From positions 1 to 62,175 of the forward strand of contig QIHI01000122.1 of NCBI GenBank assembly GCA_003230915.1: a stretch of DNA of 62,175 nucleotides, in the 5' to 3' direction. The position numbers and the translations under genes are program-made. Under the pieces are notes generated by a model, which was not told the DNA's origin, ran no database searches, and saw only the letters and a list, made by a program, of their open reading frames with translations. Below are positions 33,335 through 38,952 of the stretch, piece after piece. The DNA is from Kiritimatiellales bacterium. GTDB taxonomy: Bacteria; Verrucomicrobiota; Kiritimatiellia; Kiritimatiellales; Pontiellaceae. Every line of letters starts with the position of its first letter. Positions within the stretch are counted from its first letter, which is position 1.

Positions 33335-34363
33335 TTATTTCGGCGCGATTTTTGGTAACACGTCCACATCCACGGTTTCCATCCAACGCTTCAGGGCACC
33401 CCACCCTTCGAATCCCATTAACCCATTGATATAGCGATACCCGTCGCCATAATCTGGATCGGGACACTCCACAATCCCGTGGAGGACATCGGCATAGTTC
33501 CGCCGCTGACAGAGCTCCGCGGCGGCTTGCTGGCAAAGGCCCTCGTGCACCCAAAGGGGAGCCTCTTTCAAACGCGGAAAATGTTCATGGATCAGGTCGT
33601 GCATCAGCTCGTGGGTAGCCGTGACTCGGAACACAGAATCGTGCAGGTGGTCGACAATATAAATCTTTTCTCGGTCCAACTCAGGAGCCTCCTTCCATCC
33701 CCCGAAAAGGCCCTTCTTGGTCATCATCGTTTGGCGGCTATAGAGTCCACGCACCGAAACCGGCGAATCGCTCTTCCGGAGATGTTTTGAAAGACGCTGC
33801 ATTTCGTTTTTATCCACCAGCACCAGCTCTGGAATCGAAGCATGCTTTAGTGAGGTCCACGCCTCAAGCTGTCGACGAGCGCGGTCATAATTTTGCTGCG
33901 CAACTTTCTGGTCCTTTACCGCCCAGCGCATGCAAGCCACGCAAATCTCCCGCCCGTCGTTCAGCGTGGTGGGATAGGCCCCCGGTAGACCGCATGAAAA
34001 GCACGTTGGGGTCTTTTCCATGCAGCGTTCGCAGTACGTGTATTGCGTGACTGTAAATCCCTTTTTGATTGGAACATTGCAGATTTTGCACTTGGGTAAG
34101 GTGGTTCGAAAACAAACATCACCGCAGAAGATCTTTCCATCTGACTTGCGGTATTCGCCCCGAATGATCTTGCCGCAAATGGAGCATTTCGGGCGCAATT
34201 CATCAACGCACGCCTTGGAGCAACACGTCTGTCCGTCGTAGGTCCACGTTCCTCTTTGCAGCCGGATTCCGCACACGTCGCACCGGTCCGATTTTGCATC
34301 TACCGATGCTCCGGCACAGCAGAGAGTCGCCGTGAACCACCGTCTAGAGAGATTCCGATTCAT
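33335..34363 (-). CDS. DA1-like zinc peptidase with LIM/zinc-ribbon N-terminus
   Basis: A 342-residue protein. The N-terminal half has at least four CxxC-type zinc-binding pairs (CDVCG, CSKAC, CSICG, CKICN, CERC, CFSCG) arranged like LIM domains. The C-terminal half has a gluzincin-type peptidase motif: HELMH at residues 251-255, and 18 residues later the third ligand in VHEGLCQ (Glu274). The EGLCQ phrase matches the EGICQ of plant DA1 peptidases, which are ubiquitin-activated growth regulators. Bacterial relatives exist but are functionally unstudied as far as I know. The first 23 residues may be a weak signal sequence. It converges with the K+ channel gene. Confidence 0.78.
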   Translation of the reverse strand: MNRNLSRRWFTATLCCAGASVDAKSDRCDVCGIRLQRGTWTYDGQTCCSKACVDELRPKCSICGKIIRGEYRKSDGKIFCGDVCFRTTLPKCKICNVPIKKGFTVTQYTYCERCMEKTPTCFSCGLPGAYPTTLNDGREICVACMRWAVKDQKVAQQNYDRARRQLEAWTSLKHASIPELVLVDKNEMQRLSKHLRKSDSPVSVRGLYSRQTMMTKKGLFGGWKEAPELDREKIYIVDHLHDSVFRVTATHELMHDLIHEHFPRLKEAPLWVHEGLCQQAAAELCQRRNYADVLHGIVECPDPDYGDGYRYINGLMGFEGWGALKRWMETVDVDVLPKIAPK

Positions 34364-36915: not shown

Positions 36916-38639
36916 CTAGAGTTTGAATTGCTTCTCCAGCCCCTTGCTGGATTCAAAAAAGAATTCGGTTTCACAAATTTTTAGCGTCACTTTGCTCCCA
37001 TTGGCGGTAAGCACGATGGCATCGCCGGGATGACGGGTAAGCCAGATATTGGCGAGGGTGATGGCGCGTTCAATGCCGTCGCCGCGCTGGAAGTTCCAAA
37101 CTTCGTCGGGTTGGGCGACTCGAGAACCGTCGTAGATCGATTCGTTGGGCATTTTTTCGAAGGTTTGGAGCAACGCTTCGTCGTCAAGCTCCTTCGTGGC
37201 CTTGATGCAGGCGGGGTTGCGTTCGAGCGCGGCCTTGAGGAAAGGTTGCCAGTCGGTAGCAGAGAGGTCGCGACTTGCATAGAAGGCGAGGTCGGCCACG
37301 CGGTGCGAGCTTCGCAGGCCTCCCAGATATTTAACGATCTCTTCGCGCTCTATGCCGGGTTGGATTTCGATGGGTCCAGGGCCATTAAAGGTCTTGCTTG
37401 CCGTGTCGGGAAGTTCAGGGTCGAGGTGAATGAAATCGACGAGGCCTTCGATGACAGACATCTTACGATCCATATCGCTGGTGCAGTCAATCTTGTCGGC
37501 AAGGCCGGTCATACTGACTTCATCGAAGTGGGAGATGGGATTCCCTTTTAGATAATCCGCTAGTTTATTAAGCTGAATGCGGTCGGGGATGGGGGCGGTG
37601 TAGAAGTCGTATTCGTCAATTTGGTTGAGCAGTTTGTCGCAGGTTGCTTTATCGGAGACCTTGTAGGGGCTGCCATGTTCATAGGCGAAGGCGCGTTCGA
37701 TGGGCAGGTATTGCTCCTGACCGTGGCCTGGAAGCATTTTTGGTGTTCGGAGCGATCACGCAGGAAGTTAGCGAGCATTTCGTAGGTGATATCGGTGGTG
37801 GTGAACGCATCAAGCTTTTCGCGGAACAGCTCGAAGCTATCGGGAGAAATGGTGGCTTCGGGATAGACGGTGTGGATGTAGCCGGTGTTGTTGGCCACGA
37901 TGGTAACCTGCTCGTGGCGCAGGGCGCGCTGCGCCCGGGCAGTGAGGTCGGTGCCGTTGAACCACATGTTCTTGGTCACAAGCCGACGGTTGTTGGTCAG
38001 CACACCGTCGTTCACGTTAATGAAGTTTTGCGAGTGTAGCGGGGTGGCGAGCAGGAAGATGTCTTCGAGCGGAATATCGCAAATGACGAAGAGCGCGGCG
38101 GCATAGAGCGTGGAGAGCGAGACGCATTCACCAGCACCAGCGCGGTAGCTTTCTTTGTGCTTGAAGGCGTCCATGGCTTCGAGCGTTTCGGTTTTCCAGT
38201 AGGGAATGGTCTCGGAGGTGTATTTATCGAGGCCGAAATGCTTGCGGATATCGAGCGAGAAATAATGCTTGTCGCCCTCATAGCCGAAGAGCGCGTTGCT
38301 CTGGCTGATGGACTTTTCGTCCATGAAAGGGGCGAAGCGCGCCATTTCGGCTGCCTTTGTGGTCAAACCCCAGGTGTCGAGGTCGAGGTTGAATTCGTAG
38401 TGGTCGATAATGAACTGCTTGAGCCGCTGGATTTTTTTGTAGGGCTTCATCGTGTCGAGTTTGCGGAACCAGTCGTGGTTCTTCCACTCCCAGATGCGCG
38501 GCGACATGATATTGGCCAGCACTAGGCTGTAGAGCAGCTCTGGGAAGACAAAGATTTCCATGTCAGAAAGCGAGATGGCGGAGGAATATTTTTCAAGCTG
38601 CTCGGCGGGGATTTCTGGATATGGCTTCATGCGGTGCAT
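36916..38639 (-). pseudogene. transglutaminase-like protein gene interrupted by one frameshift
   Basis: Two adjoining frames make one protein of about 570 residues. The first runs from the Met near 38639 (MHRMKPYPEIPAEQLEKYSS) to SEHQK. The second continues as MLPGHGQEQYLPIERAFAYE to the stop at 36916. The switch lies in a run of five T (plus strand 37737-37741); one added base restores the frame. The first part contains a papain-fold candidate: Cys in RAGAGECVSLSTLYAAAL and His in ATPLHSQNF. I know no named function. The clean single break could be a real mutation, a slippery-run event or an assembly error. Confidence 0.65.
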
Positions 38640-38767
38640 TGTAGAGTCCCAATACACATTTAAAAGCAAACATTGGCTGGAAAAATTCGCATATTTTGGT
38701 GGGCGGATTTTTTGGTTTTCGGGCGTTGACTCGTTTTGGACGGATGGGTATACATACTGCTTTTCAC

Positions 38768-38854
38768 GCACCCGTGGTGAAATTGGTAGACACGCAAGAT
38801 TCAGGTTCTTGTGCCAGCAATGGCGTGATGGTTCGACTCCATTCGGGTGCACCA
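38768..38854 (+). tRNA. tRNA-Leu (CAG anticodon), CCA encoded
   Basis: An 87-base class II tRNA. The acceptor is GCACCCG/CGGGTGC, the D-arm GTGAAATTGGTAGACAC. The anticodon stem CAAGA/TCTTG frames loop TTCAGGT (anticodon CAG), then comes a variable arm, the T-arm GGTTCGACTCC and ACCA. Confidence 0.95.
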
Positions 38855-38952
38855 ACTCTCGGCGATGTAGCATTCCTCCGGAAGTACGGGCGCGTGATTA
38901 TCGAATCGCTAAATCATGGTCGCAGGGCATCGAAGCCCTCAAGAGCGAGAAG

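Follow-up and report, generated by a model that had tools for sequence, protein, structure and literature searches.

Identification of the gene and its features

The window analyzed in this study, i.e., the whole stretch of 62,175 nucleotides of contig QIHI01000122.1, comes from a 1.9-Mb genome in 143 contigs whose relatives are Kiritimatiellales/Pontiellaceae such as Pontiella. One minus-strand gene in the window codes for a protein with a predicted leader, pairs of Cys residues and a HExxH-type peptidase domain. Its features are listed below in window coordinates.

33335-34363, minus strand: DA1-like peptidase gene, 342 amino acids plus stop (intact open reading frame, orthologues, purifying codon pattern)
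34295-34363, minus strand: predicted Tat signal peptide, residues 1-23, MNRNLSRRWFTATLCCAGASVDA (twin-arginine motif, TatC in the genome, low pLDDT; putative cleavage site)
34334-34348, minus strand: SRRWF motif within the predicted Tat signal peptide
34112-34282, minus strand: LIM-like module 1, Cys pairs 28/31, 48/52, 60/63 and 80/84, two predicted Cys4 sites with a 7-residue hinge (Cys conservation, LIM fold match)
33932-34090, minus strand: LIM-like module 2, Cys pairs 92/95, 111/114, 121/124 and 141/144 (Cys conservation; counterpart of the LIM-like domain of DA1, PMC5322733)
33338-33928, minus strand: DA1-like zincin peptidase domain, residues 146-342 (profile of PF12315-positive proteins, E 7e-20; PF12315 matches in 56/65 alignment members; pLDDT 88.3)
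33599-33613, minus strand: HELMH, residues 251-255 (H, E and H invariant in 66/66 homologues; alignment with the active-site helix of M1 aminopeptidases, E 4.5e-5)
33542-33544, minus strand: Glu274, predicted third zinc ligand (invariant in 66/66; located in the long helix that follows in the model)
33440-33451, minus strand: YGDG motif, residues 305-308, located in the C-terminal subdomain and characteristic of the family (conservation in 66 homologues)

In a comparison with the nearest orthologue, divergence at third codon positions was about threefold that at first and second positions (0.41 versus 0.13), an excess that identifies the frame at 33335-34363 as a selected protein-coding gene. 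It is the sole member of the DA1-like family found in its own genome. On the same strand of the window, two overlapping open reading frames (37560-38873 and 36916-37737, spanning 36916-38873) correspond to one continuous frame of more than 600 codons in the close relative L020, which indicates a frameshift near 37700 in the window copy, due either to an assembly error or to a broken gene.

Assignment to the DA1-like family

Direct searches of the protein against Pfam and NCBIfam gave nothing useful; PF12315, the DA1-like family, did not match it even at E 10. The only match of a single-sequence PDB search was NusB, a chance match. A convergent origin, in which a gluzincin was fused to unrelated zinc ribbons and is not a DA1 homologue, would agree with the missing PF12315 match and with weak matches to M1, DUF1570 and SprT; moreover, the HExxH...EG pattern is common among gluzincins. 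In an independent comparison, a profile built from PF12315-found proteins only was scored against the window protein, with E values given for a database of one million sequences and 200 shuffles as the control. The profile matched the window protein with E 1.3e-55 over fingers and peptidase and with E 7e-20 over the peptidase domain alone, whereas the best of the 200 shuffles reached 4-5 bits, i.e., chance level. Together with the order of LIM-like and peptidase domains, which is that of DA1, these values make convergence hardly tenable, and we strongly disfavor it.

The same link was visible from the side of the family. PF12315 matched 56 of the 65 members of the peptidase-domain alignment at E<=1 (best 1.8e-13) and, weakly, 6/18 proteins of the close alignment (best 0.0036). 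Open reading frames that were found by PF12315 and extracted also matched the orthologue profile A1, and many frames were common to both. Based on this independent profile chain, we assign both the peptidase and the LIM-like module preceding it to the DA1-like type: sequence comparison places the window protein as a bacterial member of the DA1-like (PF12315) metallopeptidase family. The assignment to DA1-like peptidases in the initial annotation, which had been made from the sequence alone, is thus upheld by the profile chain and by zincin-type sequence matches.

Among known proteins, close counterparts are the plant DA1/DAR proteins (MEROPS M102; PF12315; Arabidopsis DA1), in which four CxxC/H pairs likewise form a LIM-like domain ahead of a HExxH...E peptidase (PMC5322733). 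In the window protein, such a domain (pairs 92/95, 111/114, 121/124 and 141/144) is located directly N-terminal to the peptidase. The zinc site of plant DA1 is HEMMHx15EE, whereas that of the window protein is HExxH-x18-E. The latter also differs in having an export signal, an all-Cys first module with a 7-residue hinge and no ubiquitin-interacting motifs (UIMs). A Pfam scan of the window protein detected no UIM, and the first finger comes immediately after the signal peptide; because of this absence and the N-terminal export signal, the protein was not filed as a plant-type DA1. The suggestion that it reproduces DA1 architecture therefore stands for the LIM-like module followed by a peptidase, but not for the UIM, the canonical first LIM domain or the spacing of the zinc site (18 residues versus x15 in plants).

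The predicted zinc site and peptidase fold

HELMH (residues 251-255) is followed after 18 residues by E274 of the sequence EGLCQ (274-278). Across the phylum, H251, E252, H255, E274, G275, Y305, G306 and G308 were invariant in all 66 aligned homologues, and R310 was present in 64. Eighteen homologues could be aligned end to end with conservation of the finger Cys residues, H251, E252, H255 and E274; C114 was found in all but one. End-to-end conservation in these 18 proteins and invariance of the zinc site in 66/66 place the motif far beyond chance. The HELMH-x18-E and EGLCQ pattern with multiple Cys pairs, on which the initial annotation was built, is thus confirmed within an intact 342-residue frame.

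The similarity of profile A2 to M1 aminopeptidases (E 4.5e-5) was confined to the segment around the zinc site, about 37 residues, and did not cover the whole catalytic domain. Like the window protein, M1 enzymes (e.g., aminopeptidase N) carry a HELxH-x18-E zinc site on two helices; they differ in being without fingers and in showing no domain similarity past the active-site segment. In the predicted structure of the window protein (mean pLDDT 83.7 over its full length, 88.3 for the isolated peptidase domain and low for residues 1-23), HELMH and Glu274 are located in two successive long helices, as in gluzincins. When the isolated peptidase domain was compared with PDB folds, several zincins were near the top, none of them significant (E 0.3 and above); the PDB copy searched thus yielded no close solved relative. 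A solved structure of the DA1-like peptidase type was not found in the PDB searches either.

Conservation of the zinc site bears on whether the domain is an active enzyme. The protein could instead serve mainly as an exported zinc- or protein-binding scaffold with a zincin domain that is structural or degenerate in activity: the family is defined by its fingers as much as by its peptidase, and neither a substrate nor an operon partner was found. However, Glu252 and the three ligands are invariant in 66/66 homologues despite domain identity down to about 20%, a degree of conservation not expected had activity been lost. We consider the scaffold role unlikely and favor a functional metallopeptidase.

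Cysteine pairs and LIM-like modules

The region between the leader and the peptidase domain contains 16 Cys residues in eight CxxC/CxxxC pairs (28/31, 48/52, 60/63, 80/84, 92/95, 111/114, 121/124 and 141/144). Their spacing over residues 28-144 is regular (2-16-3-7-2-16-3-7-2-15-2-6-2-16-2), and the finger Cys residues are kept in nearly all 66 family members of the alignment. This pattern suggests that the eight pairs form four Cys4 sites, arranged in two modules and presumably occupied by zinc.

The best five PDB fold matches were all LIM structures (E 4.6e-5 to 8.5e-4, probability 0.99-1.00, low TM scores), and the top match was a tandem LIM, PINCH1 LIM4-5 (E 4.6e-5). Canonical LIM domains follow the pattern CxxC..HxxC-x2-CxxC..CxxC/H/D and so have hinges of 2 residues; in the window protein the hinges are 7 and 6 residues, the ligands are all Cys, and PF00412 did not match. 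Since the fold resembles LIM tandems but the canonical definition fails, LIM-like is the right term. The LIM-type zinc domains proposed earlier were accordingly retained as to fold, but not as canonical LIM domains, given the all-Cys first module and the lack of a PF00412 match.

Predicted export

The N-terminus carries a feature that had been overlooked, an export signal. The SRRWF motif is followed by a hydrophobic segment, TATLCCAGASV, and the twin-arginine motif is a conserved feature of the otherwise variable first 25 residues. An [STP]RRx[FM] motif near the N-terminus occurred in 16 of 17 Pontiellaceae orthologues versus 1/287 background open reading frames from the fetched loci. TatC is encoded in the window genome and in all 30 genomes searched. 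The family is not bound to Tat, since L015, one of the Pontiellaceae orthologues, starts with a Sec-like leader that contains no RR; homologues in other families have mostly ordinary hydrophobic Sec-like leaders, as judged by motif-based leader calls. These observations are explained most simply by a probable export of the family, through Tat in Pontiellaceae, and judging from these signals the window protein very likely acts outside the cytoplasm.

Bacterial ubiquitin-like systems exist, and plant DA1 is activated by ubiquitin; the protein might accordingly be a cytoplasmic protease with a regulatory role in a ubiquitin-like pathway of prokaryotes, its hydrophobic N-terminus acting as a membrane anchor. 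The conserved SRRxF leader and TatC, the Sec-like leaders elsewhere in the family and the absence of a UIM all speak against this. Searches of the window genome for ubiquitin or E2 gave no match, a weak negative as control genomes gave no match either, and no ubiquitin-pathway genes occurred among the neighbors scanned. We regard such a cytoplasmic role as very improbable. An exported location argues against peptidase activation by ubiquitylation, and the export signal is the strongest argument that ubiquitin probably plays no part in the function of this protein: the bacterial family, which is without ubiquitin-interacting motifs, is probably not ubiquitin-linked. The window protein is probably periplasmic, whereas plant DA1 is intracellular.

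Distribution and genomic context

A search of 58 other genomes returned orthologues with 54-80% identity in 17 of them (16 in the same genus group and one in the same family). An additional distant match (32%) in another family of the class is counted in a wider tally of 18/58. Among 388 Verrucomicrobiota genomes sampled, profile A1 had matches in 84 and PF12315 in 36; the DA1-like gene is therefore a widespread Verrucomicrobiota family and not an oddity of one bacterium. In the tree of the Verrucomicrobiota proteins, those from Pontiellaceae group together in a single clade with full support, and the identity of peptidase domains to that of the window protein falls to about 20% among family members. 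The PF12315-positive Verrucomicrobiota proteins L039-L068 (peptidase domains about 20-25% identical) share with the window protein the order of leader, Cys4 fingers and DA1-like peptidase and the same invariant residues; they differ in their Sec-like leaders and mostly HExxH-x16-E zinc sites, and some have one finger fewer.

Bacterial DA1 homologues, e.g., that of Roseiflexus, have already been reported (Dong et al. 2017; PMC5322733, citing Burroughs et al. 2011). The Roseiflexus protein, compared here by that description only, is bacterial like the window protein and has LIM-like fingers and DA1-like similarity, but belongs to a different phylum. The present analysis adds the export signals, the difference between Sec and Tat leaders and the wide occurrence of the family in Verrucomicrobiota; no description of family export, the Tat variant or this breadth was found in the limited literature examined.

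Several variants of copy number and architecture were also observed. Two neighboring DA1-like genes occur in several genomes of one genus (G153:C25, G209:C4, G144:C53, G147:C3, G341:C2 and G165:C15), likely by tandem duplication. One genome carries, besides its full copy (L012), a second, partial one at a contig end (L019; G026:C170); strain variation or bin mixture could account for it. A 694-codon frame at G230:C4:12640-13608 has five consecutive finger-module matches to profile A1 and no peptidase match, and is possibly a finger-only relative.

A conserved gene order, NADK-VanZ-OEP-K+ channel, in which the two middle genes are VanZ-like and outer-membrane efflux genes, lies convergent to the DA1-like gene in much of Pontiellaceae, indicating vertical inheritance of the gene within this family. 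A topoisomerase gene upstream, on the same strand, is common only to the window and its nearest relative. Other lineages have unrelated neighbors beside the gene (ptsH-ptsI, aldo/keto reductase). In four loci of other Verrucomicrobiota families (L103, L106, L107 and L110), the PTS gene ptsI is divergent from the DA1-like gene, with ptsH in 3/4. A scan of loci of Pontiellaceae and other lineages revealed no recurring neighbor gene that would name a substrate, and because the neighbors are convergent in Pontiellaceae and different in other lineages, no functional partner is claimed. Relatives of the protein were found in neither plasmids nor viral contigs, and there was no mobile context; a phage or plasmid origin is thus not indicated.

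Proposed function and evolution

Taken together, we think it likely that the gene encodes a Tat-exported bacterial DA1-like metallopeptidase, gated by its fingers and carrying out limited proteolysis. Folding would probably take place in the cytoplasm, where all four Cys4 fingers and the active site would acquire their zinc, and the SRRxF signal would then direct the protein in its folded state into the periplasm. After export, the pair of LIM-like modules may serve as a platform for binding and gating, through which one or a few protein partners reach the zincin domain. His251, His255 and Glu274 would hold zinc, while Glu252, as the general base, would activate water for limited proteolysis. 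In plant DA1, changing Cys residues of the third pair of the LIM-like domain abolished peptidase activity (PMC5322733), a precedent which, by analogy, suggests finger-controlled activity in the bacterial protein as well. The best-supported reading is that the protein acts as a finger-gated zinc endopeptidase on a limited set of extracytoplasmic proteins. Of this scheme, the coding gene, the DA1-like homology, the invariant zinc site, the LIM-like fold, the zincin-like active-site segment, the export motif and the presence of TatC were established computationally, and the export itself, zinc content, catalysis, gating and substrate are inferred.

How this relates to the plant enzymes is more tentative. 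It is possible, if somewhat short of probable, that DA1-type peptidases began as exported bacterial proteases under the control of LIM-like fingers, that one of them became cytosolic in land plants, where ubiquitylation replaced extracytoplasmic activation, and that Pontiellaceae shifted from Sec to Tat so that the fingers are zinc-loaded before export.

Being compact, free of UIMs and probably exported, the bacterial protein could offer a reduced system for asking whether LIM-like fingers alone gate the active site. In addition, a Tat-exported protein with sixteen finger Cys residues would be a useful case for understanding why zinc-finger proteins might need folded export.
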